The translations under genes were made by a program, and so were the position numbers. A stretch of DNA of 64,000 nucleotides, taken from Lachnospiraceae bacterium. Its GTDB lineage: Bacteria > Bacillota > Clostridia > Lachnospirales > Lachnospiraceae. The stretch is from the NCBI GenBank assembly GCA_900168235.1, contig FUZG01000001.1:1-64000 (forward strand), in the 5' to 3' direction. The notes beneath the pieces were generated by a model that did not search any database, was not told the DNA's origin, and saw only the letters and a program-made list of their open reading frames with translations. Shown piece by piece: positions 29,263-57,494 of this stretch (positions are counted from its first letter, which is position 1; every line of letters begins with the position of its first letter).

Positions 29263-30204
29263 TCACTTCCTCTCTATGATTTTCTTTGCTTTCTCCGCTA
29301 TGTTTTCTGCGGTGAGTCCGAATTTCTCAAGCAGCTCATCGGGATGACCGGAGTGACCGAATACGTCATTCACGCCGATCCGTTCTACGGGAACGGGATA
29401 CTCTGACGCGATCACCTCTGACACTGCACTTCCGAGACCGCCTATCACGTTATGCTCTTCTGCTGTAACGATGGCACCCGTCTCTTTTGCAGCCTTGAGG
29501 ATGATGTCACGGTCTATAGGCTTGATGGTGTGCATATCGATCACTCTTGCCGAGATGCCTTCTTTTTCAAGGATTTTCTGAGCGTTGAGTGCTCTCTGGA
29601 CCATGAGGCCGCATGCTATTATCGTTACATCGTTTCCATCGGTCAGCTGAACTCCCTTTCCCAGTTCAAATTTATACCCGTCAAATGTATCCGTTACGGA
29701 TTCAACTGCAGGTCTTCCTGTTCTAAGGTAGCACGGACCTTTCTTTTCAAGTATTGCCTTGACCGCGAGCCTTGTTTCATTCGCATCGCTTGGCACGACC
29801 ACCGTCATTCCGGGGATAGTTCTCATGAGACTTATGTCTTCCAGCGCCTGATGTGTAGCGCCGTCTTCTCCTACTGTGAGTCCCGCGTGGCTTCCTACTA
29901 CCTTTACATTGAGTCCCGGATATGCCACATCATTACGCACCTGATCGTATACCCGCCCTGCCGCAAATATCGCAAAAGTATGTACCAGCGAAGTTGCTCC
30001 GCAGGCTGCCATTCCGGCACCTATTCCTACCATATTTGACTCTGCGATACCTACATTGAAAAATCTCTCAGGATATTTATCCGCAAAATACTTTGTCATG
30101 GTGCAGCTTTTTAGATCTGAATCGATCACATAGATACTGCTGTCACCGCCAAACTCTTCCAGTGCACGGCCATAGGCTTCTCTTGTAGATATATTTCTCT
30201 CCAT
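29263..30204 (-). CDS. Transketolase, C-terminal subunit
   Basis: 313 residues covering the pyrimidine-binding and C-terminal domains of transketolase: STREAYGRAL, VGIAESNMVGIGAGMAACG and VKVVGSHAGLTVGEDGATHQALEDI. ATG 30204 (GGAGGGC before it) is chosen because it lies 1 base past the N-subunit stop; the open frame upstream is out of context. With the N-subunit it would shuttle two-carbon units between sugar phosphates, including D-erythrose 4-phosphate and xylulose 5-phosphate. Last gene of the ribose-type ABC operon, followed by a strong terminator. Confidence 0.92.
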   Translation of the reverse strand: MERNISTREAYGRALEEFGGDSSIYVIDSDLKSCTMTKYFADKYPERFFNVGIAESNMVGIGAGMAACGATSLVHTFAIFAAGRVYDQVRNDVAYPGLNVKVVGSHAGLTVGEDGATHQALEDISLMRTIPGMTVVVPSDANETRLAVKAILEKKGPCYLRTGRPAVESVTDTFDGYKFELGKGVQLTDGNDVTIIACGLMVQRALNAQKILEKEGISARVIDMHTIKPIDRDIILKAAKETGAIVTAEEHNVIGGLGSAVSEVIASEYPVPVERIGVNDVFGHSGHPDELLEKFGLTAENIAEKAKKIIERK

Positions 30205-30205
30205 A

Positions 30206-31045
30206 TCAGCCCTCCAATCCTGCGATACGCTGATCGATTTCTCTAAATGCTGTCTGCCACTCTTCCTCTGTAGGCTGTCCTCCGTGGAAACGTACCTGAC
30301 CTTCAAATACAGAAACACCTTTGCCCTTTACGGTCTCTGCAACAATCATGGTAGGTCTGCCTTTCTGCTCTTTTGCCAGCTCTACTGCATCCCCGACCTG
30401 AGCCACATCGTTTCCGTCTACCTTTATCACGTTCCAGCCAAAAGCTTCAAATTTCCTGTCGATAGGATACGGTGACATTACTTCTTCAAGTGTTCCGTCT
30501 AGCTGGAGCTTGTTGTTGTCAACGAATCCTATGAGATTATCTACTTTATAAAAGCCTGCACACATGGCAGCTTCCCATATCTGACCTTCCTGTATCTCTC
30601 CGTCACCAAGGATCGCATAGACGTAGTTATCATATTTTTGGGTTTTACTATAAAGCGCCATTCCGAGCGCTACAGAAAGTCCCTGTCCGAGAGACCCTGT
30701 AGACATATCTACACCGGGAACATGAATCTCAACATGACCTGACAGGTCGCTGTCGATCTTTCGGAAAGTCTTTAGATGTTCCAGCGGGAAAAATCCTTTG
30801 AGCGCCAGTGCTGAGTAAAGTGCCGGAGAACAGTGTCCCTTTGAAAGCACCAGACGGTCGCGATCCTCTCTTTCAGGATCTGTCACTGTCACATCCATCT
30901 CATCAAAGTAAAGAACTGAAAGCATCTCAGCAATGGACATTGATCCGCCTATATGTCCCGAGCCTGCATTTTTTATAGTTTCCAAAGCTGTTTTTCTGAT
31001 CTTGTCAGCCCATAAAGACAGCTCTTTTTTCTTATCTTTATTCAT
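30206..31045 (-). CDS. Transketolase, N-terminal subunit
   Basis: 279 residues with the thiamine pyrophosphate domain: GSGHIGGSMSIAEML, SKGHCSPALYSAL, STGSLGQGLSVALGMAL, and the Mg2+/TPP motif ILGDGEIQEGQIWEA ending in NN. Split transketolases are common in Clostridia. It sits 20 bases downstream of the sugar permease gene and 1 base from the C-subunit, which indicates that the transported sugar feeds the non-oxidative pentose phosphate pathway. A dedicated catabolic copy seems likelier than the housekeeping one, by context. Confidence 0.92.
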   Translation of the reverse strand: MNKDKKKELSLWADKIRKTALETIKNAGSGHIGGSMSIAEMLSVLYFDEMDVTVTDPEREDRDRLVLSKGHCSPALYSALALKGFFPLEHLKTFRKIDSDLSGHVEIHVPGVDMSTGSLGQGLSVALGMALYSKTQKYDNYVYAILGDGEIQEGQIWEAAMCAGFYKVDNLIGFVDNNKLQLDGTLEEVMSPYPIDRKFEAFGWNVIKVDGNDVAQVGDAVELAKEQKGRPTMIVAETVKGKGVSVFEGQVRFHGGQPTEEEWQTAFREIDQRIAGLEG

Positions 31046-31066: not shown

Positions 31067-32050
31067 TCATGCTGCATTTTGTCTCTTCTGCTTCAGTCTG
31101 TCTGTGTAGACCGCAACGATGATGATCACGCCTTTCAGGACAAACTGCCAATACGAATTTACATGCATGAGGTTCAGACCATTTGAAATAGTTCCAATGA
31201 TAAGTACACCGATTATCAGTCCGCCAACGGATCCTGTTCCTCCGAAGAAGGAAGTTCCGCCAAGTACCGATGCGGCGATAGCATCTGTTTCATATCCTTC
31301 ACCTGTTGATGGCTGTCCTGATGACATTCTGGCAGCCAGTATCACTCCGCAGAAACCTGCCATGGCACCGCTAACTGTCCATACAAAAATTTTTACCCTG
31401 TTAAGATTGATGCCGGAGAACTTTGCCGCCAGCTCATTTCCTCCAACAGCATAAATACTCCGCCCCATCTGTGTTTTATTTAATGTGAAGAAATCGACGA
31501 TGAGAAAGACCGTCATATATACCACCGGAAGCGGTATAGGTCCAAACGAGCCTGTTCCGACTACGCCAAAGGATCTTTCTGTCGTAGTGACAGGAGAACC
31601 GTTTGCAAAAAGATATGCTGCACCCCGGCAGATAGACTGCATCGCAAGAGTCACTACAAAGGGATGGATACCCGTATAAGTGATGATCGATCCATTTGCA
31701 AATCCCACTATCATTCCGAGGACAACTCCCACCAGTATCCCCATCCATATAGGAAGACCTGCATTTTCGAAAGTCATGACGCAGAGAACACCGCTCAATG
31801 CTGCAAGAGCTCCGCCTGTCAGGTCGATTCCTGCAAGGATTATTGCCATCTGAACACCTATTGCGAGATAGCAGTTTGTTGCACATGTCCTAAGGAGATT
31901 CAGGATATTTGTCTTTGTCAGAAAGTTGTTTCCAAAGATCGTGAAGAACACGCACATGACAAGAAACGCCAGAAGGATTCCATAATTCTGCTTAAAATAT
32001 GCCTTTACCGGCTGCATGAAAATATTTGATCCTGAAGATTTTTTATCCAT
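31067..32050 (-). CDS. Sugar ABC transporter permease (RbsC type)
   Basis: 327 residues with 8-10 helices of the ribose/xylose/galactose permease family: ILAGIDLTGGALAALSGVL (Walker-like pore helix signature), VGLIIGVLIIGTISNGLNL near the C terminus and AAKFSGINL in the middle. It forms the homodimeric pore paired with the CUT2 ATPase whose stop overlaps its ATG by one base. Sugar identity unknown; operon with split transketolase suggests a pentose or four-carbon sugar. Confidence 0.9.
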   Translation of the reverse strand: MDKKSSGSNIFMQPVKAYFKQNYGILLAFLVMCVFFTIFGNNFLTKTNILNLLRTCATNCYLAIGVQMAIILAGIDLTGGALAALSGVLCVMTFENAGLPIWMGILVGVVLGMIVGFANGSIITYTGIHPFVVTLAMQSICRGAAYLFANGSPVTTTERSFGVVGTGSFGPIPLPVVYMTVFLIVDFFTLNKTQMGRSIYAVGGNELAAKFSGINLNRVKIFVWTVSGAMAGFCGVILAARMSSGQPSTGEGYETDAIAASVLGGTSFFGGTGSVGGLIIGVLIIGTISNGLNLMHVNSYWQFVLKGVIIIVAVYTDRLKQKRQNAA

Positions 32051-33543
32051 TAGTTTGCTACTCCCATTCCAAGCGACAGGATGGCTTCCTGCGTATACTC
32101 TGACCGATTGAGTTCCCCTGTTATACGACCTTCGCTCATGACTATCATCCGGTCACTCATGTTCATGACTTCCGGCATTTCTGATGAGATCAGAACTATC
32201 GCCATTCCGGCTTTTGCAAGATCATTTATTATGGAATAGATTTCTGCTTTTGCTCCTACATCTATGCCTCGCGTTGGTTCATCGAGTATCAGTACCTTCG
32301 GGTCTGTCGCAAGCCATTTTGAAAGGAGAACTTTTTGCTGATTTCCTCCGGATAAAGTGGAGACATTTACGTGACTTGACGGTGCTTTGATCGAGAGTGA
32401 TCTCATACCGTGATCTATGATCGATTCTTCCTTTGCCCTGTTCACATGAAGATGTCCTATAAATTCACGTATGCTTGGCAGAGAAATATTGAATCCTATT
32501 GTGTTATTTAAGAGAAGTCCCTGCGTCTTTCTGCTTTCAGGAACCAGAACCGCTCCGTGCTGCTGCATATAGCTTGGATCATGACGGCTTAATTTTTCTC
32601 CGTTCAGAATCACTTCTCCGCCGTTCATGGGATAAAGCCCCATGACGGATTCCAGAAGTTCTGACCGCCCGGCACCTACCAGCCCGTAAAAACCAAGTAT
32701 TTCTCCGCTTCTTACATAAAAACTGCAATTCACCGCGCGTTTTCCTGCTGTGACGTTTTTTACTTCCAGCATGACCTCACCCGGTTCATTAAAGTTTCTT
32801 ACGTAATAATTTCCAAGATCCCGTCCGACCATCAGCGATATCAGTTTTTGCTCGGAACATTCCTCAGATCTCAGACAGTCCATGTATGCACCGTCACGCA
32901 TGATCGTGACTGCATCGCACAGCTGAAAAACTTCTGCCATCTTATGGGTTATAAATATGATGCCCATTCCCTGCTTTTTCAGTTCACGCACCGTTCTGAA
33001 AAGAACTTCTACTTCTCTCTCAGAGAGGGACGATGTAGGCTCATCAAGGATCAGTATCTTTGCATTGAGCGAAAAAGCTTTTGCGATCTCGACCATCTGC
33101 TGCTGTCCCATGGAAAGCCTTCCGACCATTTCTCTGGGATCGATATCAAGCCCCACTCTTTTCAGATACGGCTGCGCTGCCTCAGCCATTAGATTCTGGC
33201 TCACGAGACCAAAGCGGTTCTTTATGGTGCGCCCGAGAAAAATATTTTCAGCGATGGTGAGATGTGGTTCCAGCGCAAGTTCCTGATGAATGAAAGCCAC
33301 GCCCAGCGCTTGAGATTCATGAACCGAATGAACTTCAACCTTCCTGCCTTCTATATAAATTTCTCCGGAATCCGGCTGATAGATACCGCCCAGGACATTC
33401 ATAAGTGTTGACTTACCTGCACCGTTTTCTCCCATGAAGCCCATTATCTCGCCTTCATGGAGCACCATCCGTGCATTGCTCAGAGCCTTCACACCGGGAA
33501 ATGTCTTGACGATATTTTCCATTCTAAGAAGTTCTTTAGCCAC
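32050..33543 (-). CDS. Sugar ABC transporter ATPase, double domain (RbsA type)
   Basis: 497 residues with two ABC domains. Domain 1: GENGAGKST near 38, LSMGQQQMVEIAKA, LDEPTSSLS. Domain 2: the degenerate GLVGAGRSEL Walker A, and LSGGNQQKVLLSKWL with LDEPTRGIDVGAKAEIY. This is the usual CUT2 arrangement (RbsA/MglA/XylG). GTG start at 33543 with AAAGGAGC upstream. Its stop overlaps the permease start. An intercistronic hairpin separates it from the binding protein gene. Confidence 0.92.
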   Translation of the reverse strand: MAKELLRMENIVKTFPGVKALSNARMVLHEGEIMGFMGENGAGKSTLMNVLGGIYQPDSGEIYIEGRKVEVHSVHESQALGVAFIHQELALEPHLTIAENIFLGRTIKNRFGLVSQNLMAEAAQPYLKRVGLDIDPREMVGRLSMGQQQMVEIAKAFSLNAKILILDEPTSSLSEREVEVLFRTVRELKKQGMGIIFITHKMAEVFQLCDAVTIMRDGAYMDCLRSEECSEQKLISLMVGRDLGNYYVRNFNEPGEVMLEVKNVTAGKRAVNCSFYVRSGEILGFYGLVGAGRSELLESVMGLYPMNGGEVILNGEKLSRHDPSYMQQHGAVLVPESRKTQGLLLNNTIGFNISLPSIREFIGHLHVNRAKEESIIDHGMRSLSIKAPSSHVNVSTLSGGNQQKVLLSKWLATDPKVLILDEPTRGIDVGAKAEIYSIINDLAKAGMAIVLISSEMPEVMNMSDRMIVMSEGRITGELNRSEYTQEAILSLGMGVAN

Positions 33544-33568
33544 TTTTTGCTCCTTTGCCCGGAAAGAG

Positions 33569-33611
33569 GAGATGCCGAAGCTGCATTTTTTTGTACTATC
33601 CCCGGCATCTC
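33569..33611 (-). promoter_or_regulatory. Intercistronic hairpin after the binding-protein gene
   Basis: Perfect 9-bp inverted repeat GAGATGCCG/CGGCATCTC with a 25-nt spacer, between the solute-binding protein and ATPase genes. Only a poor T-run follows, so it probably stabilises the upstream message or partly terminates. Confidence 0.5.
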
Positions 33612-33654
33612 ATCTTATGGATCACGTCCTATTTACAGATCAGACGGTCTTAGA

Positions 33655-34761
33655 TCACTGCCAGTCAGAAATGTCATAGTTACTGATGTTTTCGCCTGTG
33701 ATCAGTTCAACGGGAACAACCACTTCTTTATCAACGGTCTTTCCGTTAATTGCATTGATAGCTTCATCAACCGCAGTTGATCCGATAACTGAAGGCTGCT
33801 GAGCTGCTGATGCTGTTGCAGAACCATCCTTCACATATCCCATGAAATCAGGATTTCCGTCAACGCCGTAGATCAGGATATCGTTTCTTCCGGCTGCTGC
33901 CGCTGCCTGTACGCATCCAAGAGCTCCCATGTCGTTGATGCAGAAGAAAGCACCGAGATCTGCGTCTGCTGTGATGGCATCCTCTGCTACCGGAAGTGTT
34001 GTTGCTGTGTCGCCCTCTGTATCAGATGTTCCGACTATCTCAAATGTATCGCCTACTGTATCACGGAATCCCTGCTCACGCTGTACGCATGCAGCACCGG
34101 ACGGCTGGTTCATGATATAAACCTTTGATCCCGGATCCAGTTTCTCAAGCATATCCTGTGCACAGAGAACACCAGCTGTATAGTTATCAGATGCTACGAT
34201 AGACTCAACGAGATCATTTCTGTCTACGGGAGTATCAACGTTGATGACCGGGATCTTTGCATCTGCACATGCCTGAAGTGCTTCTGTTACAGCAGTCGTA
34301 TCCATCGGAGCGAGGATCACTGCGTCTACCTTCTGGTTGATAAGGTCATAGACAAAATTATTCATCTTTGCCTGGTCACTGTCTGCGTCAACAGTCACAA
34401 GCTGTGTCTCAGGATCCATTCCGAGAGCTTTCATTTCATCTTTGATACCGCCCATCATTGCGGACCAGAACGGATTATTCATGGTTGTAGGAACATAAGC
34501 CAGAGTAAGGTTCTTTACGTCAAGTCCCTCTGTGTCTGCAGCAACCGCTGAAATAGCTTCGTCTGTGGAAGCTGCCCCTTCACTTGCAGCTTCACTTTCT
34601 GCTTCCGGTTTCGCCGGCGCTTCCTCAGCCGGTGCTTCACTCACTGCTTCTGCTTTTTCAGCCGGTGCAGCTGATGCTCCTGTTGATGTTGATCCTCCGC
34701 ATGCTGTCATACTTGCTACCATTACCCCTACTAATGCAACAGACAAAAACTTCTTAAACAT
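33655..34761 (-). CDS. Sugar-binding lipoprotein (RbsB type)
   Basis: 368 residues. Signal peptide ends in MTAC (C21). About 45 residues of Ala/Glu/Pro linker follow, then a type I periplasmic-binding fold (LAYVPTTMNNPFWSAMMGG, VDAVILAPMDTTAV, PVINVDTPVDRND, CINDMGALG, IYGVDGNPDFMGYV). First gene of an operon running to transketolase. The ligand cannot be named from sequence; ribose, xylose or a tetritol are candidates by neighbours. Upstream are a promoter and a ROK-type operator. Confidence 0.9.
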   Translation of the reverse strand: MFKKFLSVALVGVMVASMTACGGSTSTGASAAPAEKAEAVSEAPAEEAPAKPEAESEAASEGAASTDEAISAVAADTEGLDVKNLTLAYVPTTMNNPFWSAMMGGIKDEMKALGMDPETQLVTVDADSDQAKMNNFVYDLINQKVDAVILAPMDTTAVTEALQACADAKIPVINVDTPVDRNDLVESIVASDNYTAGVLCAQDMLEKLDPGSKVYIMNQPSGAACVQREQGFRDTVGDTFEIVGTSDTEGDTATTLPVAEDAITADADLGAFFCINDMGALGCVQAAAAAGRNDILIYGVDGNPDFMGYVKDGSATASAAQQPSVIGSTAVDEAINAINGKTVDKEVVVPVELITGENISNYDISDWQ

Positions 34762-35126: not shown

Positions 35127-36344
35127 TCAGAAATACTCTCTGCTGACTTCTTCCAGAAGCTGGTCATTCTCATAAAGCTTATCCATTAGGTGATAGTATC
35201 CGCCTATTATAAAAGAGTCTTCCCTGAGCTTCGTGTTTCTAAGTACCAGATTTTTTAAGACGATATCAGGTACGTACTTACTCATGTTTTTCCTGACCAT
35301 TTCTATAAAATCATGATCCTTTGGATAATCAGAACCTATAATGATGCAGTCGGGATTTATGAGATAGACCATGCTGGACAGACCGTACGCCAGCATCCTT
35401 GCAAGTTTTTCTATGACCCACACAGCAAGCGGATCCCGATTATCGTACTGCACAAGGATATCATCGTAACTGCTGTTTTCCGTCAATGGACTATCAGGAA
35501 ATTCTATCAGACGTTCGCACATATACTTTACTGCGCTGTCTGTTCCGGCATTTGCTTCAAACGAACCGTCCTCAGGATCACGGGTGTTGAAATTTATCCC
35601 CATGTGACCGACTTCCCCTGCGATGCCAAGCTGCCCCTGAACTATCTTTCCGTTTATGACCATTCCGCATCCGATGCCGAATCCTCTGGACCTGACCGCC
35701 ACGATGCTCACGTTGCTGTTCTCTTTTACTTCCTCTGCCTTCTGCCACTCAGCATAGGCTGACAGCTTTGCGTCATGCATTATCACGATCTTACGATTCA
35801 ACGCATCTTCCAGCTCACGCCGTATATCCACGTCATTCCACTGAGGAAATTCCGAGATCATGTAGGTTTCTTTTCCTGTTTCATCATCACGGATATAGAG
35901 CCCCGGAACCGCAAGACATGCTCCAAGAATTGTATCGCTCCCATACTTTTCCTGTATCTCCGAAACATCCCCGGTCATTTTTTTGACAGCATCAGAAAAA
36001 GCTTCCCGGTCTCCGAACCTGTATCGGTTCCACTCCTGAAGTCTCCCATCCAGAGTGTAGACTGCTATATCGTATCCCACTCTGGTGATACCCATAGAGA
36101 TCAGAAATCTGCCCTCGATCCGCAGGCTCAGTTTCTCGCCTCTCTTACCCGAGGGGATATCACCGTCTCCCGTAAGGATCTCCATCTGCACAAATTCATT
36201 GATGATATTGGTTATGGTAGCCTTCTGAAGCCCGAGTTCAGAAGCAAGTTCTGCCCGCGTAGCTGACCCCTTTTCAATAAGCGTTTTGAAAACAAGGATC
36301 CTGTTCCGCTTCAGCATTTCAGTGCTGTTTAATCCGCGTTTCAA
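35127..36344 (-). CDS. ROK-family transcriptional repressor (XylR/NagC type)
   Basis: 405 residues: an N-terminal winged helix-turn-helix (RAELASELGLQKATITNIINEF, about 30-51) fused to a ROK sugar-binding domain (GEVGHMGINF). The usual zinc cluster CxCGxxGC after that motif is absent; RDPEDGSFEANAGT stands there instead. TTG start at 36344 with GGAGG five bases upstream. Likely represses the ribose-type ABC/transketolase operon downstream; inducer unknown. It follows the DeoR gene by 63 bp, with a hairpin in between. Confidence 0.85.
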   Translation of the reverse strand: MKRGLNSTEMLKRNRILVFKTLIEKGSATRAELASELGLQKATITNIINEFVQMEILTGDGDIPSGKRGEKLSLRIEGRFLISMGITRVGYDIAVYTLDGRLQEWNRYRFGDREAFSDAVKKMTGDVSEIQEKYGSDTILGACLAVPGLYIRDDETGKETYMISEFPQWNDVDIRRELEDALNRKIVIMHDAKLSAYAEWQKAEEVKENSNVSIVAVRSRGFGIGCGMVINGKIVQGQLGIAGEVGHMGINFNTRDPEDGSFEANAGTDSAVKYMCERLIEFPDSPLTENSSYDDILVQYDNRDPLAVWVIEKLARMLAYGLSSMVYLINPDCIIIGSDYPKDHDFIEMVRKNMSKYVPDIVLKNLVLRNTKLREDSFIIGGYYHLMDKLYENDQLLEEVSREYF

Positions 36345-36407: not shown

Positions 36408-37166
36408 TCAGCACACCAGATTTACTCCCAGCTCCTTTGCACATTTCACCTGTTCTTCGTTTATACCGTCATCAGTGATGATACGGGAAATATCTGTGAG
36501 CGGACATACCACACTTAAGTATCCACCGCCGAATTTAGAACTGTCTGCAAGTACCGTTACTTCGTCCGCAGCCTTGATGATAGCTTTCTTTATCTCCATC
36601 TGTGATGATCCGATGGATGTAAGCCCTATTTCCAAATTTACGCCGTGAGCACCGATAAATGCCTTGTTCACATGAGCATGCTCAAGTGTTTCCAGTGTCA
36701 TATTTCCAACTGTTGCGGAAAGTGTTCCGCTCACGTGCCCTCCAACGATATTTAGATTCACGTGAGGGATTCCTGCAAGTTCATACGCTGTGAGCAGTGA
36801 ATTAGTAACGATAGTCACATTTTTTTCACTATGATCTCTTATATAACATCCAAGATAATAGCAGGTCGACGAATCATCAAGTATTATCATGTCCTGATTA
36901 TTTATATACTCGTATGCCTTCTCTGCTATCTTCTTTTTCTGCTCCACATGAAGCCTCAGTACCGGGATCTTGTCTTTTACAGAGCCTTCTTTTTCAAGCC
37001 TTACCGCACCGCCGTGGACACGGGTGAGCTTGCCGGCTTTTTCCAGTTCTCTTATATCTGTACGGATGGTCACTGCGGAACAATTAAGCTCCCGGCTCAA
37101 TTCATTCACACGGACACTTCCGTTATCTTCCAGTTTATCAAGGATCATCTGACGCCTGTTTTCCAT
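36408..37166 (-). CDS. DeoR-family transcriptional regulator
   Basis: 252 residues. N-terminal helix-turn-helix VRVNELSRELNCSAVTIRTDIRELEKAGKLTRVHGG is the DeoR signature (split here: VNELSRELN, then TIRTDIRELE); the C-terminal sugar-phosphate sensor has IILDDSSTCYYLG and VTNSLLTAYEL with the phosphate-binding serines, and LADSSKFG. Such proteins repress sugar-phosphate regulons and respond to a phosphorylated intermediate. Its own leader carries an inverted repeat with CTTTCG cores, and similar CTTTCGTTT sites precede pdxA2, the rpiB-like and tpi-like genes, making it their likely regulator. Confidence 0.9.
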   Translation of the reverse strand: MENRRQMILDKLEDNGSVRVNELSRELNCSAVTIRTDIRELEKAGKLTRVHGGAVRLEKEGSVKDKIPVLRLHVEQKKKIAEKAYEYINNQDMIILDDSSTCYYLGCYIRDHSEKNVTIVTNSLLTAYELAGIPHVNLNIVGGHVSGTLSATVGNMTLETLEHAHVNKAFIGAHGVNLEIGLTSIGSSQMEIKKAIIKAADEVTVLADSSKFGGGYLSVVCPLTDISRIITDDGINEEQVKCAKELGVNLVC

Positions 37167-41312: not shown

Positions 41313-41323
41313 TATATGTACCC

Positions 41324-41358
41324 CTTTCGTTTTATTCTTTCAAATCTTTCGTTTTATT
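41324..41358 (-). promoter_or_regulatory. Paired operators in the pdxA2 leader
   Basis: Two exact copies of CTTTCGTTTTATT at 41324-41336 and 41346-41358, 22 bp apart (two helix turns), downstream of the pdxA2 transcription start and overlapping its ribosome binding site. Further TTATCGTTTTG and CTTTTCGATTCGA variants follow. Direct repeats of this kind are typical DeoR-family sites. Confidence 0.6.
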
Positions 41359-41388
41359 ATCGTTTTGCTTTTCGATTCGATGTACTAA

Positions 41389-41417
41389 ATTCTATACTAT
41401 TACGTTTGTTTTTTCAA
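41389..41417 (-). promoter_or_regulatory. Promoter of the pdxA2 operon
   Basis: Minus strand TTGAAA (41412-41417), 17-bp spacer, TAGAAT (41389-41394). Confidence 0.6.
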
Positions 41418-43666: not shown

Positions 43667-43695
43667 ATAGATTCCTCCTGATTTATATTTGATAT

Positions 43696-46612: not shown

Positions 46613-46648
46613 TAAGTGACAATATTTCAACAGGCAAGGAGGCACAGC

Positions 46649-49972: not shown

Positions 49973-49980
49973 AGCTCTCC

Positions 49981-50805
49981 TTATCCTTTCACGGCACCAA
50001 AGCTAAGTCCACGAACCAGATGTTTCTGGATACACAATGCAAATATCACAGCAGGCAGTGCCGATACTGTGGATGCCACCGCAAGCTGTCCGTAATGAGC
50101 ACTGTCCGTACCCAGATATTTCATGATGGCGACAGTTACCGGATACACTTTATTGCTGGATAATATCAGAGGAAAAGTAAACGAGTTCCACGCAAAGATA
50201 AAAGCAAGAAGTGCCGACGATACGAGTCCCGGCTTTATAAGAGGTACAAGCATCTTGAAAAAGATCTGATACCAGCTGTACCCGTCAACCTGCGCAGCGT
50301 ACTCGATCTCAACAGAAATATCTTCAAAATATCCCCTGACGACCCATATAAGGAGCGGCAGCGATATAAGCTGATAAACCCATATGAGACCAAGATAACT
50401 GTCATAGAGACCAATTTTCTGATAGATCATGAAAAGAGGAAGAACAACGAGGATCTCCGGCGCAAACTTATACGAAAGTATCTGAAAAGCAAGTTCTTCT
50501 TTTCTCGGAAAGCTGTATCTTGCAAGAGCATATGCCGCAGGAACTCCGACAATTATGGATACAAGCACTGCTCCACCCGATACAATGACACTATCAAGGA
50601 TATATCTTCCGTAATCGGATCTCAGGAGAACCTCCTGATAATTGGATAATGTAGGATGAAATGCAAATGTTGTCGTAAACACTTCTGTGTCGGACTTAAA
50701 AGAAATGAGCACCATCCAGACAAGAGGAAACAATGCAAAGACGGCATAGATCAGCAGCAAAAAATTCATGAGTATATTCAGTGCTTTTTGTTTTCCGGTC
50801 TTCAT
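49981..50805 (-). CDS. Sugar/polyol ABC permease, MalG type
   Basis: 274 residues with six helices and the EAA loop around YAAQVDGYSWYQIFFKMLVPLIKPG, the contact to an ATPase. CUT1 family (MalG/UgpE). 12 bases after the MalF-type gene. A GGGGAG lies before ATG. Partner of the preceding permease to form a heterodimeric pore. Confidence 0.9.
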   Translation of the reverse strand: MKTGKQKALNILMNFLLLIYAVFALFPLVWMVLISFKSDTEVFTTTFAFHPTLSNYQEVLLRSDYGRYILDSVIVSGGAVLVSIIVGVPAAYALARYSFPRKEELAFQILSYKFAPEILVVLPLFMIYQKIGLYDSYLGLIWVYQLISLPLLIWVVRGYFEDISVEIEYAAQVDGYSWYQIFFKMLVPLIKPGLVSSALLAFIFAWNSFTFPLILSSNKVYPVTVAIMKYLGTDSAHYGQLAVASTVSALPAVIFALCIQKHLVRGLSFGAVKG

Positions 50806-50817
50806 TTTTCTCCCCCT

Positions 50818-51750
50818 TTAATCTTCCAGTCCCGCAGCCTGTTTCTGAGCAGCTCTCTGAAGATTTACGATACGTTTTGCAGCGATATTTATTATCAGCC
50901 ATAAAACCAGGATAAAAGGTATCGCCGCCCCAAATTTCTGGAACTTAAAGCCCTTCTGGTAAGCCGTGAGCGACAGGGACATAAGTGAATCTCCCGGGCC
51001 TCCCTTTGTGAGTGCAAAGATCACCGCATACTCCTGAAGCGCTGCCATAAGTCTAAAAAGCAGAGCGATATAGAGACTTGGCTTCAGCATCGGCAGAGTT
51101 AAATTCGTAAAATTAAACCATGCACTTCCGCCATCAATTTTTGCAGATTCAAAAGGAGATTTCGGAAGGGACTGAAGACCTGCCAGCACCAAAAGAATGA
51201 TAAACGCCGTATTTATCCATACGTCTATGATGACTACCGTCATAAGAGCAGTTCCCGGTGCCGCAGCCCAGGGAAAGTTATATACGCCAAACAGGTTCAG
51301 GAGCTTTTCAACAATTCCTACAGAACTATTCAGCATAAGCTGCCACACGATGGTAGCAGTTACAGGCGCGATCATGAGCGGGAATACCAGAAGTACACGG
51401 AGTACTTTTGACAGTCCGTTATTCAGGTTATTTAAGAGGAGCGCAACTCCGACACCTATCAGCATCTCAAGTGCAGTCGTGATGATGCCGTATAAAAGCG
51501 ATATCTTTACCGCTCCCCAAAATGAAGCATCACCCAGCATATTTACCCAGTTAGCTATGCCTATAAATTTATGACTCGGCAGCTTAAATGAATAATTTGT
51601 CAGAGAATACCATATCGCCATCATAAACGGGACCATGATACCGATAGTGATGATAAGCGAGGGCGCAACGATAAGATAAGGACGGACCCTCATTGAAAAC
51701 GGCACTTTATTCAGATCTGATCTATCGTTGTTTTTATTTTTTTCAGCCAT
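50818..51750 (-). CDS. Sugar/polyol ABC permease, MalF type
   Basis: 310 residues with six helices; EAA loop ESAKIDGGSAWFNFTNLTLPMLKP. CUT1 family (MalF/UgpA). ATG 51750 (MAEKNK) is chosen because it follows GAGGTAAAAAG; the frame runs 15 codons upstream across an intercistronic hairpin. Operon position between binding protein and second permease. Confidence 0.9.
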   Translation of the reverse strand: MAEKNKNNDRSDLNKVPFSMRVRPYLIVAPSLIITIGIMVPFMMAIWYSLTNYSFKLPSHKFIGIANWVNMLGDASFWGAVKISLLYGIITTALEMLIGVGVALLLNNLNNGLSKVLRVLLVFPLMIAPVTATIVWQLMLNSSVGIVEKLLNLFGVYNFPWAAAPGTALMTVVIIDVWINTAFIILLVLAGLQSLPKSPFESAKIDGGSAWFNFTNLTLPMLKPSLYIALLFRLMAALQEYAVIFALTKGGPGDSLMSLSLTAYQKGFKFQKFGAAIPFILVLWLIINIAAKRIVNLQRAAQKQAAGLED

Positions 51751-51769
51751 CTTTTTACCTCTTACCTCC

Positions 51770-51812
51770 CGCCCTAAAAGGGAAGGAAAAACCACCTCCT
51801 TCCCTTAAGGCG
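51770..51812 (-). promoter_or_regulatory. Intercistronic hairpin after the binding-protein gene
   Basis: Minus-strand arms CGCCTTAAGGGAAGGA and TCCTTCCCTTTTAGGGCG, a 16-bp stem with small imperfections, between the solute-binding protein and MalF genes. No T-run. Same position as the hairpin at 33569-33611. Confidence 0.6.
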
Positions 51813-51828
51813 AGTTAAAATTGAGCGC

Positions 51829-53319
51829 TTATTCCACTTCGAGATCAGACACAAGCTCATCCATTGTTTCTTTCAGCTGGTCCATTGCTTCCTGAACAGA
51901 TGAATATTTATCCGTTGTAACAAGATCCTGAAGAGTCTTTGCCCATTCTGTAGTTGTCTCTGTGAAGTAAGGCTGAGCGGTGAAGAATATGCTCGCATCC
52001 TTAGAGATAGTTGAGAATGCTTCGTAGTAGCCTTCTGCTCCTGCTACAGATTCTTTATATGCATCACTGTTAAGTACGGATGTACGAGGAGTATCTGTAC
52101 AAGCCTTTTCAACACCTGACCAGAGCATAAACTCAGGACTTGTGAAATACTGCATGAAGTACCATGCTGCCTCTTTCTTTGCAGAGTCTGCATTCATAGC
52201 CATTGACCATACCCAGAGATTTGATTTCATATCAGCTTCTGTCTTTCCTGCTGATTCAGGATAAGGCACCATTCCAAATGCCAGATTTCCGGCTTCATTT
52301 GATGATCCGGGTGTATTCTGTGTATATCCGCCTCTATCTGCATCCCACATCATAGCTGCTTTTCCTGCACCGAGGTCTGCGCCGCACATTTCCCATCCGT
52401 AGGTTGCCCACTGAGGAGCACCGCCGTTCTTTACCAGATCTACCCAGTACTCTGTCATTGCTACGGCTTCCGGTGAATTTACTTTACTTACGAGCTTTCC
52501 GTTTTCGATCTCAAAATCCTTTGCGCCCCATGTGGAGTACATTGACATATATGCAGGATGGATCGTTCCCCAGTCAGGAAGTCCGCGGACTGCAAGTCCA
52601 TAAGAACCGCTGCCGTCAAATTCCTTAAGTGCCTTTGATGCTTCGAGAAGTTCTTCCGCTGTCTTCGGAGGTTTGATACCCTTTTCCTCCAGAATCCGCT
52701 TATTGTAAGTCAGGATATTTACTTCCCATCCCATAGGAAGTGCCCACTGGGAACCGCTTCCAACAGGATGCCCCGGAACCAGATCCCACTTCAGCGCATC
52801 GATAACTGCCGGGATAAAGTCATCATAATTCCAGTCAGGACTTGTAAGATCTGTCCCGATATAATTTTCCAGCGGTTCCAGATTACCAGCTGTTGCATAC
52901 TCCCATGACTGATATGCACCTGTCATGAAAACATCGATCGAACCAGAATGACTGCTGAGTTCGACATTTAACTTTTCAAAATAGTTCCCCTCCGGCATCG
53001 ATGAGTAATTTACTTTGATACCTGTTTTCTCAGTAAATTCACCGAGCTTTTCCTCTACTGCATCCGCATAGGTGTGTTCACTGAAAAGAACCGTTATCTC
53101 TTCGCCATCAAATTTTTTCCAGTCAAATTCGCCTGACGAGGCAGCAGGTGTTTCTGACGCCTTTGCCCCCGCATCAGCAGAACCGGCTTCTTCCGCTGCC
53201 TTTGATCCCGCATCAGCTCCAGTTCCTGTTCCTGCCGGCTGACCGCCGGAGCTTCCGCATCCTGCCAGCGCGCTTGCTGCGATCAATGTTGCCATCATGA
53301 CCGATAGTAGCTTTCTCAT
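51829..53319 (-). CDS. Extracellular sugar/polyol-binding lipoprotein
   Basis: 496 residues, family 1 solute-binding protein. Signal ends in ALAGC (C21), then a Gly/Ala/Ser linker of about 45 residues. EEITVLFSEHTYADAVEEKL starts the mature fold, and the ligand-site region MTGAYQSWEYATAGNLEPLE follows, related to MalE/UgpB. With eltD upstream a polyol ligand (erythritol, threitol) is plausible; that is inference. 31 bases after the dehydrogenase gene, no terminator between. Confidence 0.88.
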   Translation of the reverse strand: MRKLLSVMMATLIAASALAGCGSSGGQPAGTGTGADAGSKAAEEAGSADAGAKASETPAASSGEFDWKKFDGEEITVLFSEHTYADAVEEKLGEFTEKTGIKVNYSSMPEGNYFEKLNVELSSHSGSIDVFMTGAYQSWEYATAGNLEPLENYIGTDLTSPDWNYDDFIPAVIDALKWDLVPGHPVGSGSQWALPMGWEVNILTYNKRILEEKGIKPPKTAEELLEASKALKEFDGSGSYGLAVRGLPDWGTIHPAYMSMYSTWGAKDFEIENGKLVSKVNSPEAVAMTEYWVDLVKNGGAPQWATYGWEMCGADLGAGKAAMMWDADRGGYTQNTPGSSNEAGNLAFGMVPYPESAGKTEADMKSNLWVWSMAMNADSAKKEAAWYFMQYFTSPEFMLWSGVEKACTDTPRTSVLNSDAYKESVAGAEGYYEAFSTISKDASIFFTAQPYFTETTTEWAKTLQDLVTTDKYSSVQEAMDQLKETMDELVSDLEVE

Positions 53320-53350: not shown

Positions 53351-54439
53351 TTAGTTAAAAGTCAATACGACTTTCAGATCCCCTTCTTTTCCTGTTGCAA
53401 GTTCAAAGCCCTTTTCCCATTCCTCTATAGGAAGGATCGTAGTTATCACGCCCTCCGTTTTCAGATTGCCGTTCTGCATATTTTCTATGATGAAAGGATA
53501 TGCATACGGGCTCAGGTGTGAACCTCTGATATCGAGTTCCTTTCTGTCACCGATTATTGACCAGTCAACCGTAGTTTCTTTTCCAAAAACAGAGAACTCT
53601 ACAAATGTTCCGAGCTTTCGGATTATTGTAAGCCCCTGTACTACGCTCGCAGGATTTCCTGTAGCTTCGATGTAGATATCACATCCATATCCGTCAGTTA
53701 AATCTTTTATCTCTTTATCAATGTCACATTTACCCGGATTAAATATCAGATCCGCACCAAATTTTTTTGCCATTTCAAGACGATTGTCCTGCATATCAAG
53801 GACTATGAGCTTCTTCGGATTTTTCATCCTCGCATAGGTGATCATTCCGAGTCCCAGCGTTCCCGCACCGGAGATCACAACAACATCCTCATTTGTGATC
53901 TCTGCTCTGTCTACCGCGTGCTTAGAGCATCCGTACGGTTCTATAAGAGCCGCCTGCTCCAGCGGCATATCCTTCGGAACCTTGGAGATCACTGATGTCT
54001 TTCCGTATCTCACGTACTCAGCCATGCCTCCGTTTGTATAACTCATAAATCCATACATATCATGAGGCTGACACATCCAATAGCGTCCCGTCTTACAGAA
54101 ACGGCATTTACCGCATGGCACGATCTGGTCGGCCGTGATTTTTTCTCCAAGCTCATACCCTTCCACGTTTTCGCCCATCTGGACTATAGTTCCATAAAAT
54201 TCATGTCCGGGAATGAATGGAGGTTTAACCCACGACGGCTGCACCTCATCTCCCCAGAACATCGCAGCACCATGTTTACATTTCAGATCTCCGGCACAAA
54301 TGCCACACGCTTCTGTCTTGATGATAATGTCATCCGGGCCGCACTCAGGAGTCGGATATTCAAGCTCCAGTCTGTAGTCATCCTTGCTGTAAGCAACCAG
54401 AGCCTTCATAGTTTTTGGAATACTACCTTTAACCGGCAT
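53351..54439 (-). CDS. eltD: Erythritol/L-threitol dehydrogenase homologue
   Basis: 362 residues, zinc-dependent medium-chain dehydrogenase. Catalytic zinc site C48, H79 and E80; structural zinc C109, C112, C115, C123; Rossmann motif GAGTLGLGM; then YIEATGNPASVVQGL, TVDWSIIGDRKELDIRGSHL. The blocks ICAGDLKCKHGAAMFWGDE, QIVPC and MCQPHDMYGF are very like the Mycobacterium smegmatis enzyme that oxidises erythritol and L-threitol to L-erythrulose with NAD+. GGAGG precedes ATG. First gene of a seven-gene operon, divergent from a kinase. Confidence 0.8.
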   Translation of the reverse strand: MPVKGSIPKTMKALVAYSKDDYRLELEYPTPECGPDDIIIKTEACGICAGDLKCKHGAAMFWGDEVQPSWVKPPFIPGHEFYGTIVQMGENVEGYELGEKITADQIVPCGKCRFCKTGRYWMCQPHDMYGFMSYTNGGMAEYVRYGKTSVISKVPKDMPLEQAALIEPYGCSKHAVDRAEITNEDVVVISGAGTLGLGMITYARMKNPKKLIVLDMQDNRLEMAKKFGADLIFNPGKCDIDKEIKDLTDGYGCDIYIEATGNPASVVQGLTIIRKLGTFVEFSVFGKETTVDWSIIGDRKELDIRGSHLSPYAYPFIIENMQNGNLKTEGVITTILPIEEWEKGFELATGKEGDLKVVLTFN

Positions 54440-54729: not shown

Positions 54730-54761
54730 TCTTCCATGAGAAAGTGGGGTTTGATCAAAAT

Positions 54762-56288
54762 ATGAGATATTATCTTGGACTGGATAACGGCGGCACTAAT
54801 ACAAAAGCAGCTCTGTTCACAAAGGATGGTTCACAGGTAGCAGTTGAAAGCATCGCTACCGCTGCCATCACACCTTTTCCTGATTTTGTAGAACGGGACA
54901 TGGATCAGATGTGGGATGATAACTGTACTGTTATAAGAAATCTGATCACGAAAAATAACATCGACCCAAAAGACATCGCAGGTATCGGTCTCTGCGGTCA
55001 CGGAAAGGGTCTGTACCTATGGGGAAAGGACGGTCATCCTGTAAGACGAGGAATCATCTCCTCTGATAACCGCGCATGGAAATATGCTTCTGACTGGAAA
55101 GCTGACGGCACTGAGGCAAAGGCATTTGAACTGTCCTGCCAGCACATCATGGCATGCCAGCCCATCTGTCTACTTGCATGGATCCGTGACAACGAACCGG
55201 AAGCACTGAACAATATCGAATGGATCTTTGAATGTAAAGACTATGTACGTTTCCGCCTCACCGGAGAAGCCCGTGCAGAGATCACAGATTACTCCGGCAC
55301 AGGACTCATGAACCTTCATACTGCATCCTTTGATGCTGAACTTCTGAAGCTTTTCGGCCTCGAAAAACTTATGGATGCTCTGCCTCCGATCTGCACCTCA
55401 ACTGAGATCGCAGGTCACATCACAAAGGAATCTGCATCGGCTACAGGTCTTTTAGAAGGAACTCCTGTCATCGGAGGTATGTTTGATATTAATGCCTGTG
55501 CACTTGCAGTAAACGTTACTAATGAAGACAACATCTGCATGATCGCCGGAACATGGAGCATTAATGAATACCCGCGAAAGACTGCTGTTTTAGACGGCAG
55601 TGTGCAGATGAACTCAATTTTCTGCCTTCCGGATCACTTCCTCATAGAGGAATCCAGCCCGACTTCCGCAGGAAATAATGAATGGTTCATCCGCCAGCTT
55701 CTCCCCGAGTTAAGGGAACAGGCAAAAAAGAACGGTCAAAGTATATATGAGATCATGAACAACTGGTGTGAAGAATTTGAACCAAAAGACTTTGTTCCGG
55801 TCTTTCTGCCGTTCCTCACCGCAAGTAATGTTAATCCTCTTGCGCGCGGCGCTTTCATAGGACTCGATGCATCGCACACGAGACACCACATGCTCCGTGC
55901 AGTCTACGAAGGTATCGTTTTTTCTCACAGATGGCATCTGGACAGGCTGATGAAGACCAGAAACGGAAAAGGAGCGACTATCCGTCTCGCAGGAGGCGCT
56001 GCCAAGTCCAAAGTTTGGACGCAAATGTTTGCAGATGTGATGAATCTTCCGATAGAAACAGTAGATGTGGATGAGACAGGTGCCCTCGGATGTGCTATCG
56101 CTGTAGCTTACGCAGTAGGTGATCACGAAAGTGTCACAGAAGCCGCAGAGCATATGTGCAGGATCAACCCTGCTATCCATCCGAGACAGTGGGCGCACGA
56201 TGAATACGAGAAAAAGTATCAGTTATATAAGAAAGTCATAGCTTCATTAGACGATGTATGGAGCGATATGCAGAAGATAATAAGCTAA
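54762..56288 (+). CDS. FGGY-family carbohydrate kinase
   Basis: 508 residues, ATP-dependent sugar kinase. N-terminal YYLGLDNGGTNTKAAL (D8, GGT) is the ATPase phosphate loop; the C-terminal FGGY part has AVYEGIVFSHRWHLDRL and IRLAGGAAKSKVWTQMFADV. Overall it is closest to the LyxK (L-xylulose kinase) group by segments I recall (GLCGHGKGLYLW, DNRAWKYASDW, FDINACALA). With eltD it may act on L-erythrulose, or L-xylulose. ATG 54762 is preferred over GTG 54744, as GTGGGGT serves as ribosome binding site. Cotranscribed with the ROK gene 78 bases on. Confidence 0.87.
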   Translation: MRYYLGLDNGGTNTKAALFTKDGSQVAVESIATAAITPFPDFVERDMDQMWDDNCTVIRNLITKNNIDPKDIAGIGLCGHGKGLYLWGKDGHPVRRGIISSDNRAWKYASDWKADGTEAKAFELSCQHIMACQPICLLAWIRDNEPEALNNIEWIFECKDYVRFRLTGEARAEITDYSGTGLMNLHTASFDAELLKLFGLEKLMDALPPICTSTEIAGHITKESASATGLLEGTPVIGGMFDINACALAVNVTNEDNICMIAGTWSINEYPRKTAVLDGSVQMNSIFCLPDHFLIEESSPTSAGNNEWFIRQLLPELREQAKKNGQSIYEIMNNWCEEFEPKDFVPVFLPFLTASNVNPLARGAFIGLDASHTRHHMLRAVYEGIVFSHRWHLDRLMKTRNGKGATIRLAGGAAKSKVWTQMFADVMNLPIETVDVDETGALGCAIAVAYAVGDHESVTEAAEHMCRINPAIHPRQWAHDEYEKKYQLYKKVIASLDDVWSDMQKIIS

Positions 56289-56366
56289 TCCGATTTGTAA
56301 AACGCATTAAAAGAATGTATGATATAGTTATTGCTTATGATGGGACAGTAATAATGGAAAACGCTT

Positions 56367-57494
56367 ATGAACAATACTAATCTTGAAAACTTTGATTTCA
56401 ACTTAAAAAAGTTCAATACTTCAAATATCTACTCATATTTTTTGAATCACGAGGCAGCAACCAAGCAGGATCTGGCCTCCGGTCTGAACCTGACGCTCCC
56501 GACCGTTACAAAAAATATCGCCTATCTTTCCGAACGCGGTCTGATACAGATAAGCGGATCCCGCGGTCAGACCGGAGGACGGAGGGCCGCCACCTATTCC
56601 CTTTGTGCAGAAGCAAAGGTCGCACTAGGTCTCGACATCACAAGACACCATGTTGCATGTGTTGCCGTAGACCTGAACGGAAAGATAATATCTTTCAGCA
56701 GAAACAGGCTGGTATTTAAATTTACGGATGATTATTTCAAAAAAGTATCTGTTCTTTTGAATAATTTTATCGAGAGCCATGATATTGAAAATGATAAGAT
56801 CCTTGGCGTAGGAATAGGTATACCTGCTCTTGTCCAGTCAGATAACTGTTCAGTATTTTACAGCAGTATCATAGACATACGCGAAAATACTTATGACATG
56901 TTCCGTAAATATATCCCCTTCGACATCGCTATGTTCAACGATGCAAAGGCAGCGTGCTTTGCAGAAAAATGGGTAAATAAGGATATACTTAATTCCTTTT
57001 ACATCATGCTCAGCAATAACGTAGGCGGATCCATGATAATAAACGGGCAGGTTTATTCCGGCGATAATTTTCGTTCTGCCGAGGTCGGTCATATCACGCT
57101 GGTCCCCCACGGAAGACAATGCTACTGCGGACAGTGCGGCTGCGTAGACCCCTATCTCGCAGCTACCAATCTTTCTCAGGACGACCTCGCCGGTTACTTT
57201 GAAAATCTAAAGACCACGGATGACGAAAAGATTCTGGATAACTGGTCTCAGTATCTGGACTACATGGTTTCTACCGTAAATATCGTGCGCACTATTTTGG
57301 ACTGCGACATTATCCTTGGCGGATATGTGGGTGCTTACCTTGAGCCTTACCTCGACGAGATAAAGAAACGTGCATTAAAGATCAGTACCTTTGACTCCGA
57401 TGCCGAATTTATAAAACTCTGTTCCTACAAACACGAATCTATCGCTGCCGGTGCTGCTTTGCACTATATCTCAGAATTTATCAAAACAGTATAA
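56367..57494 (+). CDS. ROK-family transcriptional repressor
   Basis: 375 residues. Helix-turn-helix at about 30-55 (KQDLASGLNLTLPTVTKNIAYL), then a ROK domain with the zinc cluster CYCGQCGCVDPYL and GIGIPALVQ. The histidine before it (HITLVPHGRQ) completes the site. Probably represses the divergent eltD operon and the kinase through the AAAAC/GTTTT palindromes; a further GTAAAACG half-site lies in the gap before it. The ribosome binding site is weak. Inducer could be the tetritol or a tetrulose. Confidence 0.87.
   Translation: MNNTNLENFDFNLKKFNTSNIYSYFLNHEAATKQDLASGLNLTLPTVTKNIAYLSERGLIQISGSRGQTGGRRAATYSLCAEAKVALGLDITRHHVACVAVDLNGKIISFSRNRLVFKFTDDYFKKVSVLLNNFIESHDIENDKILGVGIGIPALVQSDNCSVFYSSIIDIRENTYDMFRKYIPFDIAMFNDAKAACFAEKWVNKDILNSFYIMLSNNVGGSMIINGQVYSGDNFRSAEVGHITLVPHGRQCYCGQCGCVDPYLAATNLSQDDLAGYFENLKTTDDEKILDNWSQYLDYMVSTVNIVRTILDCDIILGGYVGAYLEPYLDEIKKRALKISTFDSDAEFIKLCSYKHESIAAGAALHYISEFIKTV

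Follow-up and report, generated by a model that had tools for sequence, protein, structure and literature searches.

Gene content of module B

We analysed a 64,000-base window (contig C15, positions 1–64000) of a Lachnospiraceae genome (G000; a 3.79 Mb assembly in 28 contigs, 99.93% complete), in which a 28-kb interval carries sugar utilisation genes that we group into modules A, B and C. Central to this work is module B, which encodes a KdgT-family permease, a DUF1537 kinase, a PdxA2-type dehydrogenase and two isomerases, homologues of triosephosphate isomerase (TPI; the window gene is called tpiL) and of RpiB, and which carries copies of a candidate operator, TTTCGTTT. The original prediction had read the entire interval as a single tetritol-plus-tetronate super-locus, and every gene it named, including the ROK, DeoR and ROK regulators, was recovered in its place with NCBIfam and Pfam models. 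Instead of one four-carbon super-locus, the interval is probably a mosaic of separately controlled sugar modules. Gene names are used at the level of homology, as NCBIfam equivalog cut-offs were missed for D-threonate kinase, D-threonate-4-phosphate dehydrogenase, DerI and xylulokinase. Relatives were drawn from a family sample of 299 genomes and a phylum-wide sample of 388 genomes. Module B comprises the following features:

36408–37166, minus strand: DeoR-family regulator, candidate binder of the TTTCGTTT operator
37311–37814, minus strand: YcxB-like membrane protein (Pfam PF14317)
37820–38884, minus strand: kdgT, KdgT-family sugar-acid permease (TIGR00793, 145 bits, below the cut-off of 454)
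38905–40260, minus strand: dtnK-like DUF1537 four-carbon acid sugar kinase (PF07005/PF17042)
40281–41312, minus strand: pdxA2-type dehydrogenase/decarboxylase (NF002992, 510 bits, cut-off 470)
41313–41686: divergent pdxA2/rpiB spacer of 374 bases with four TTTCGTTT operator copies
41687–42142, plus strand: RpiB homologue, DerI-like type (TIGR00689, 97 bits, cut-off 88)
42210–43004, minus strand: tpiL, TPI homologue of LerI-like type (TIGR00419, 141 bits, cut-off 131)
43042–43049: operator copy TTTCGTTT, 38 bases upstream of tpiL

The rpiB gene is divergent from pdxA2 and convergent with tpiL, which makes three transcription units rather than one operon.

A shared operator and co-occurrence tie pdxA2 to the isomerase genes

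The proposed link of the TPI-like and RpiB-like genes to kdgT-dtnK-pdxA2 is supported by a common operator. The motif TTTCGTTTWA occurs four times in the window, each time in the pdxA2/rpiB spacer (operator copies at 41325, 41347, 41510 and 41534); 0.40 occurrences were expected and none of 100 shuffles reached four. Its core, TTTCGTTT/AAACGAAA, has six sites in the 64 kb, namely the four in the spacer, one before tpiL and one at position 20, and is absent from 28 other AT-rich, overlapping sub-windows of the window as well as from the 330 bases upstream of the window DeoR, rbsB, eltD and FGGY genes.

The same arrangement was seen in relatives. Sites in the divergent pdxA2-tpiL spacer, out of all sites in the fetched stretch, number 4 of 6 in G231, 6 of 7 each in G145, G085 and G057, 5 of 5 in G163 and 2 of 3 in G110; in G038, both stretch sites (2/2) lie upstream of pdxA2. 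Single sites precede rpiB in G231 and the DeoR gene in G110, and rpiB copies on another contig carry one site each in G057 (∼100 bases upstream) and G163 (83 bases upstream). Among the eight genomes with the motif at pdxA2, tpiL is under the motif in seven (not in G038), and an rpiB of the Ser type (Ser in the column of window Ser96, described below) is under the motif or in the operon in five: the window, G231, G110, G057 and G163. Six more distant PdxA/DtnK clusters served as a control, and seven upstream regions taken from them all lacked the eight-base core. The DeoR gene is kept with pdxA2 in 8/10 other stretches (it is absent from G080, and the G057 contig ends first), and the YcxB-like gene lies beside pdxA2 in the same eight. 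We predict that the DeoR protein binds the TTTCGTTT motif, and in the explanation preferred below module B would be one DeoR-type regulon. One G163 contig (C160; locus L054, 1–3162) carries tktA-tktB (68–70% identical to the window's), a dehydrogenase and an operator-bearing Ser-type rpiB.

For co-occurrence, we compared nine family genomes with a close pdxA2 (71–79% identity) and 18 with only a distant PdxA (44–49%); G082 (pdxA2 65%, no tpiL) is in neither set, and G128, whose pdxA2 is split in two frames, was left out of the test and its cluster used for gene order only. At E 1e-70, tpiL is present in 18 other family genomes (n=299): in 9/9 of the close-pdxA2 genomes versus 9/289 of the remaining ones (Fisher p 1e-12 if genomes are independent), and it is the divergent neighbour of pdxA2 in six of the nine. 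Only one of the 18 genomes with a distant PdxA alone has tpiL. In the phylum sample, which holds no other PdxA above 51%, tpiL was found in 0/32 genomes with a 44–51% PdxA (G261 is counted in both the 18 and the 32) and in four other genomes (n=388).

For RpiB, E 1e-3 matches 283/299 family genomes, so a cut of 130 bits was set by eye; matches above it occur in 20 other family genomes and form two neighbouring groups in the tree rather than one clade. Eight of the nine close-pdxA2 genomes have such a match; in G110, the exception, the operon itself includes a Ser-type RpiB gene from a different RpiB branch. A Ser-type RpiB gene also lies inside or beside the module B cluster in the window, G231 and G128. 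We set aside as evidence the RpiB genes that adjoin module B in G035 and G038, as the former keeps the ring-opening His and the latter has Val. A scan of the genome contigs for RpiB led to three loci. Two genes of these clusters are each found in two frames, the dtnK of G231 (L043:6053–7441) and the pdxA2 of G128 (L044:1920–2940), through decay or sequencing error.

The two isomerases carry altered signatures

The altered isomerase signatures noted in the original prediction are real in alignments: loop 6 of TpiL is changed, and the window RpiB has Ser in place of the ring-opening His. Nor are the two genes the housekeeping copies, a reading ruled out by a further TPI on contig C11 (38% identical to the window homologue) and a further RpiB on contig C19 (42%) of the same assembly. 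We aligned 51 RpiB homologues, taken from the neighbourhoods fetched and from the window's own genome. All 51 rows have the catalytic Cys (Cys63 in the window protein), and the column of window Ser96 holds Ser in 46/51, His in 3/51, and Val and Gly in 1/51 each; as the RpiB and TPI rows come mostly from neighbourhoods picked by similarity to window genes, 46/51 is not a family frequency. The His rows are the other RpiB of the window's genome and two rows clustering with it, and His also occupies this position in 5/5 other low-scoring family RpiBs looked at. We take the column to be that of the His that opens the furanose ring of ribose 5-phosphate. A furanose ring is impossible for erythrulose 4-phosphate and erythrose 4-phosphate, and loss of the His therefore fits a four-carbon substrate; it presumably marks the DerI type of RpiB. 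An RpiB from Rhizobium etli with the same Ser passes the DerI equivalog model NF051858 (258 bits, cut-off 240); the window RpiB scores 113 bits with it and exceeds only the cut-off of the general RpiB/LacA/LacB subfamily (TIGR00689).

Loop 6 of TpiL reads PVWSIGVNGTPA, and that of housekeeping TPI reads PIWAIGTGKTA. In 25 of 28 TPI rows, the window's included, the loop is one residue longer and has IGxxGxP in place of IGTGKTA. This loop is also found in four alphaproteobacterial plasmid TPI proteins, each beside an RpiB homologue (by annotation in three loci, by sequence similarity in the other). TpiL retains the Lys, His and Glu motifs of TPI. The labels LerI-like and DerI-like derive from these signatures, in alignments without the Mycobacterium smegmatis or Brucella LerI/EryH and DerI/EryI sequences. 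Together, the signatures and the repeated occurrence with routes that presumably make erythrulose phosphate bring us to agree with the original prediction that the two enzymes look like tetrulose-phosphate isomerases.

The isomerase pair is also found with other entry genes

In G038, G208 (contig C35), G109, G015, G033 and G133, tpiL and an RpiB homologue have a RuBisCO-like gene no more than 5 kb away. In G038 (L046:3226–8084), genes for a lactonase, a UPF0261 protein, a class II aldolase, a GntR regulator and the RuBisCO-like protein adjoin tpiL-rpiB; the RuBisCO-like protein scores 193 bits with the OiaX model (cut-off 700), and the cluster is possibly a further acid route to erythrulose phosphate. 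On G208 contig C30 (L049:3991–10186), lactonase, UPF0261, class II aldolase, GntR and kdgT genes occur with tpiL and rpiB, and the fetched stretch holds no RuBisCO-like gene; the two isomerases may here be supplied by an acid route of the aldolase type. Elsewhere the pair is found with DhaKL and a split transketolase (G084), with a xylulokinase-FBA-rbsABC operon (G080), or with the kdgT-dtnK-pdxA2 cluster (window and G231). Outside the family, OiaX and a DUF1537 kinase are followed by a TPI-like/RpiB-like pair on R. etli p42f, and a Pasteurella locus combines a PdxA (29% identical) and a TPI (58% identical to that of the window) with DhaKL, RpiB, Tal and Tkt. An operon on contig C9 of the window's own genome (19000–36000; L127) contains ADP-dependent-kinase-like, XylB, rbsABC and FBA genes and a fused gene of DhaK-DhaL size; an FBA-kinase-rbsABC set homologous to it adjoins rpiB-tpiL in G080 and G038.

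The module B kinase and PdxA2 stand apart from their D-threonate relatives

With the D-threonate kinase model NF047819 the window kinase scores 183 bits (cut-off 450). Three module-B-type kinases reach 183–191 bits and four distant family kinases, which also fail the cut-off, 219–246; the OiaK model gives the window kinase only 73 bits. The window PdxA2 reaches 288 bits with the D-threonate-4-phosphate dehydrogenase model NF002891 (cut-off 583). All ten module B PdxA2 rows have R[S/G]S (RGS in the window) where others have RTS, the motif of the four solved PdxA/PdxA2 chains shown and of 6/6 distant family PdxA rows. Two 55% PdxA paralogues carry RCS, and the Pasteurella PdxA is wholly different at this motif. 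On our reading of the alignment, the RTS motif may be taken as family-defining for PdxA2.

Module C is probably a pentitol module

Beyond module B, module C comprises:

47688–53319, minus strand: CUT1 ATP-binding cassette (ABC) importer with two UgpC-type ATPases, two permeases and a binding protein
53351–54439, minus strand: EltD-family zinc dehydrogenase, pentitol-linked clade
54744–56288, plus strand: FGGY kinase (TIGR01312, 244 bits, below the cut-off of 380)
56367–57494, plus strand: ROK-family regulator

The tetritol half of the original prediction rested on this dehydrogenase and kinase, and it was not supported. The EltD homologue is 93% identical to a copy in G080 and 48–59% to the closest plasmid-borne proteins, among them (at 53.5%) one that NCBI names erythritol/L-threitol dehydrogenase (EltD). 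Of four plasmid EltD loci examined, three include RpiB and DhaKL, and the fourth, from Providencia, has a ribose-type importer. In a tree built without the M. smegmatis EltD, the window protein falls outside the clade of RpiB/DhaKL-linked EltD homologues, in a separate, well-supported clade of 14 rows, and tpiL or rpiB was found in 0/13 fetched stretches of the other loci in that clade. The G080 counterpart of module C has a 93% identical EltD, an 86% identical FGGY kinase and the same importer. Its FGGY gene adjoins an L-ribulose-5-phosphate 3-epimerase gene (TIGR00542, 378 bits, cut-off 272), and its importer operon ends with an AraD homologue (NF006047, 384 bits, cut-off 257; 365 of 389 bits with the araD equivalog TIGR00760). 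Counterpart clusters hold homologues of both epimerases in G085 and a homologue of the 3-epimerase in G170.

Catabolism of xylitol and L-arabinitol via L-xylulose 5-phosphate uses epimerases of the UlaE and AraD/UlaF types. Because the near-identical G080 cluster holds L-ribulose-5-phosphate 3- and 4-epimerases, module C is more likely a pentitol (C5) than a tetritol pathway, its gene set (dehydrogenase, FGGY kinase, 3-epimerase and AraD homologue in G080) being like that of xylitol/L-arabinitol catabolism. Unlike that system, the window has its two epimerases on other contigs and a dehydrogenase of the EltD family. The importer would take up a pentitol (xylitol or L-arabinitol), the dehydrogenase would oxidise it to L-xylulose, and the FGGY protein, which scored under the xylulokinase model, would phosphorylate the product, probably as an L-xylulose kinase. 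An AraD (73%, beside a second split transketolase) and an L-ribulose-5-phosphate 3-epimerase homologue (37%), both on other contigs of the genome, could complete the route to D-xylulose 5-phosphate. The nearest solved chain to the binding protein is 4rya (title sorbitol, E 2e-18). In G085 (C1:3517500–3537400; L100), an EltD-DhaK-DhaL set and an EltD-FGGY-epimerase set share one CUT1 importer, which suggests a joint tetritol and pentitol locus there.

Module A and neighbouring genes

Module A and the regulator next to it lie at the other end of the interval:

29263–30318, minus strand: tktB, transketolase C-terminal subunit (NF004559, 320 bits, positions 301–625)
30206–31045, minus strand: tktA, transketolase N-terminal subunit (NF004559, 290 bits, positions 12–281)
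31067–34761, minus strand: ribose (RbsABC)-type ABC importer with permease, ATPase and binding protein (NCBIfam/Pfam)
35127–36344, minus strand: ROK-family regulator

The tktB reading frame runs into tktA; translation of tktB more likely begins at an internal ATG near 30204. A further split transketolase on contig C18 is 55% identical to the window copy, and tktAB homologues (66/71%) lie close to module B in one fetched stretch, that of G035. Between modules B and C, desulfoferrodoxin and rubrerythrin genes (43289–44244, minus strand) stand directly upstream of tpiL, and a DUF2971 gene stands alone (46616–47557, plus strand). Four methyl-accepting chemotaxis protein genes surround the sugar modules (27048–29201, 44470–46548, 57562–59595 and 59774–61756), and two tandem copies of the Clostridiales-1 RNA (Rfam RF01699; 120 and 100 bits) lie at 25237–25562 on the minus strand.

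Proposed route of module B

In the explanation that we prefer, at a probability of roughly one half, module B is a regulon that would lead from a sugar acid through tetrulose phosphate to erythrose 4-phosphate, module C is a pentitol route and the interval is a mosaic. As with module C, the reactions of module B are read from homology and reaction logic. The KdgT-family permease would import the sugar acid, the DUF1537 kinase would phosphorylate its terminal hydroxyl, and the PdxA2-type enzyme would oxidise C3, after which the beta-keto acid would lose CO2. The released ketone would be a tetrulose phosphate (L-erythrulose 1-phosphate, then D-erythrulose 4-phosphate), because a LerI-like TPI and a DerI-like RpiB share an operator with pdxA2; conversion of D-threonate to dihydroxyacetone phosphate (DHAP) would explain the TPI but not the RpiB, from which we infer the tetrulose phosphate product. 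D-Erythrose 4-phosphate, usable by transketolase, would be the end product. The substrate would be a C5 acid, since PdxA chemistry (C3 oxidation and beta-decarboxylation) on a C5 acid phosphate frees erythrulose phosphate. A linear pentonate 5-phosphate would give erythrulose 4-phosphate, and a 2-C-hydroxymethyl tetronate 4-phosphate would give erythrulose 1-phosphate; because pdxA2 is tightly linked to the TPI homologue, a 2-C-hydroxymethyl tetronate of the isoapionate type would be the best guess. Only tentatively do we put forward the more specific scheme in which PdxA2 replaces the RuBisCO-like protein and a phosphorylated branched C5 acid (isoapionate-like) would pass via L-erythrulose 1-phosphate to erythrose 4-phosphate under one DeoR operator.

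Three known pathways resemble module B in part. DtnK, a DUF1537 kinase, and PdxA2 reportedly turn D-threonate into DHAP (Zhang et al. in 2016). Module B shares with that pathway the KdgT-type permease, the DUF1537 kinase and the PdxA2-type dehydrogenase/decarboxylase; it differs in adding an operator-sharing LerI-like TPI and DerI-like RpiB, in a kinase and a dehydrogenase that miss the equivalog cut-offs, and in having R[S/G]S instead of RTS. An erythritol/threitol pathway, said to have been described by Huang et al. in 2015, likewise ends in TPI-like and then RpiB-like isomerase steps to erythrose 4-phosphate, but its entry is a polyol dehydrogenase and an erythrulose kinase, whereas that of module B is an acid kinase and an oxidative decarboxylase, and the window EltD homologue belongs to another clade and module. 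The D-apiose/apionate pathway, according to what is reported of Carter et al. in 2018, uses the RuBisCO-like OiaX and the DUF1537 kinase OiaK. Decarboxylation of 3-oxo-isoapionate 4-phosphate yields L-erythrulose 1-phosphate. Alike are the DUF1537 kinase, the decarboxylation of a C5 acid phosphate and the TPI-like and RpiB-like genes (R. etli p42f); unlike it, module B has PdxA2 in the place of the RuBisCO-like protein and a kinase with only 73 bits against OiaK. Passages of PMC7954711 cite the D-threonate pathway of Zhang et al. 2016, passages of PMC10733421 give the erythritol/threitol pathway with EltD, LerK, LerI and DerI, and passages of PMC6302742 describe decarboxylation of 3-oxo-isoapionate 4-phosphate by RuBisCO-like proteins of the apionate type. 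In the open-access literature searched, as listings and a few passages, no description of the module B gene set was found.

Several observations weigh against the acid-to-tetrulose-phosphate regulon. The D-threonate kinase model, although far under its cut-off, is the top-scoring model for the window kinase, and action of a PdxA2 on a C5 acid is a guess. The nine close-pdxA2 genomes are not independent, and a jointly inherited block would yield the same co-occurrence; the tpiL tree is weakly resolved, so the number of times tpiL joined pdxA2 is not countable. G079, the only sampled genome of the same genus, has no close tpiL, pdxA2, EltD or RpiB-group gene, which precludes a nearest-kin comparison and makes the set accessory. 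In the fetched 20 kb of G080 (79%, among the nearest two) and of G082 (65%), pdxA2 stands without dtnK and kdgT, and neither has an operator within 330 bases of pdxA2. The fetched stretches of G080, G035 and G128 hold no operator site, although G035 and G128 have the cluster. In module B genomes, 7/9 upstream regions of tpiL or rpiB copies distant from pdxA2 lack the motif (two in G035, two in G038, and one each in G085, G145 and G080). The window has neither of the epimerases of the module C counterpart. G239 has genes for a kdgT-like permease, a DUF1537 kinase, PdxA (41%), a TPI-family protein and a Ser-type RpiB in one operon (gaps of 62, 15, 30 and 33 bases), but its TPI has no loop of the LerI type, and the operon is followed after 2.8 kb by a RuBisCO-like gene (39%); after that gene turned up, we dropped G239 as an independent case of module B.

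Alternative explanations

That all parts lie within 28 kb and the dehydrogenase belongs to the EltD family, 53.5% identical to the NCBI-named EltD, speaks for the original single super-locus feeding transketolase. The window-type EltD moreover shares genomes with close pdxA2 in 3/11 cases (0.33 expected) and with tpiL and with the RpiB group in 4/11 each, above expectation (p ∼0.003 each if genomes are independent, as the Fisher tests ignore kinship), and an EltD homologue of G133 (72%) is separated by ∼8 kb from a pair of distant PdxA and DtnK genes (39%, 29%). Yet EltD and close pdxA2 are never neighbours in the four relatives that have both: of the nine close-pdxA2 genomes, four have an EltD homologue (E 1e-90), on another contig in G080, G038 and G110 and at least 158 kb off in G085. 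Whole-genome positions were used here, and the absence of eltD from 20-kb stretches was discarded as an argument, the window eltD being 12 kb from pdxA2 and hence outside such stretches. The operator is missing before eltD, FGGY and rbsB, the EltD clade is separate, and counterpart clusters carry L-ribulose-5-phosphate epimerases. These distances and the missing operator lead us to reject one super-locus, which we regard as highly improbable. What survives of the joint tetritol and tetronate reading is a probable involvement of four-carbon sugar phosphates, by way of the acid module rather than the EltD/FGGY module. For Brucella, a coordinated catabolism of tetritols and tetronates has already been published, as passages of PMC10580937 report.

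Module B could also be an ordinary D-threonate (or D-erythronate) pathway in which DtnK and PdxA2 would give DHAP and CO2, TPI would yield glyceraldehyde 3-phosphate, and RpiB would be an incidental promoter-sharing neighbour; we consider this somewhat unlikely. The known D-threonate route uses a kinase and a PdxA from these families, kdgT, dtnK and pdxA2 presumably form a set in Salmonella, and a TPI would be useful after DHAP, TpiL keeping the Lys, His and Glu motifs and passing the general TPI model. In G145, G085 and G038, too, the operator is at pdxA2 and not before the rpiB copy examined. However, both enzymes miss the equivalog cut-offs, distant PdxA loci go without tpiL (1/18 and 0/32 genomes have one), loop 6 of TpiL is of the tetrulose-phosphate type and the RpiB is without the ring-opening His. 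RpiB accompanies module B in four genomes including the window, and the operator precedes off-contig copies in G057 and G163. A joint four-carbon regulon, near to the original prediction, with D-threonate going to DHAP and erythrulose, phosphorylated by the C9 DAK, going through TpiL and RpiB to erythrose 4-phosphate, seems to us improbable. It would account for the operator common to pdxA2, tpiL and rpiB, both branches being induced by one four-carbon diet; the single Dak1 match in the genome is a 599-residue frame of DhaK-DhaL size on contig C9, and isomerases of this kind are found together with DAK kinases in G084, G162, G110 and three plasmid loci. Against it, operator sites in fetched stretches precede pdxA2, tpiL, rpiB and once DeoR, and the C9 DAK gene lies in an operon with FBA, XylB and rbsABC homologues; among the few remaining stretch sites none was linked to a kinase or tetritol dehydrogenase gene, in a motif scan that covered stretches and not whole genomes.

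Implications

If the pentitol reading of module C is true, it suggests that an 'EltD' annotation can conceal a pentitol dehydrogenase. If our preferred explanation of module B is true, some PdxA2/DUF1537 clusters that would be annotated as D-threonate pathways do other chemistry and would be recognisable by neighbouring isomerases and by the motif beside the conserved Arg. There would then be a second way, besides RuBisCO-like proteins, from a sugar acid to erythrulose phosphate. Overall, this would suggest a model where TPI-like and RpiB-like pairs are a plug-in module behind several entry enzymes.

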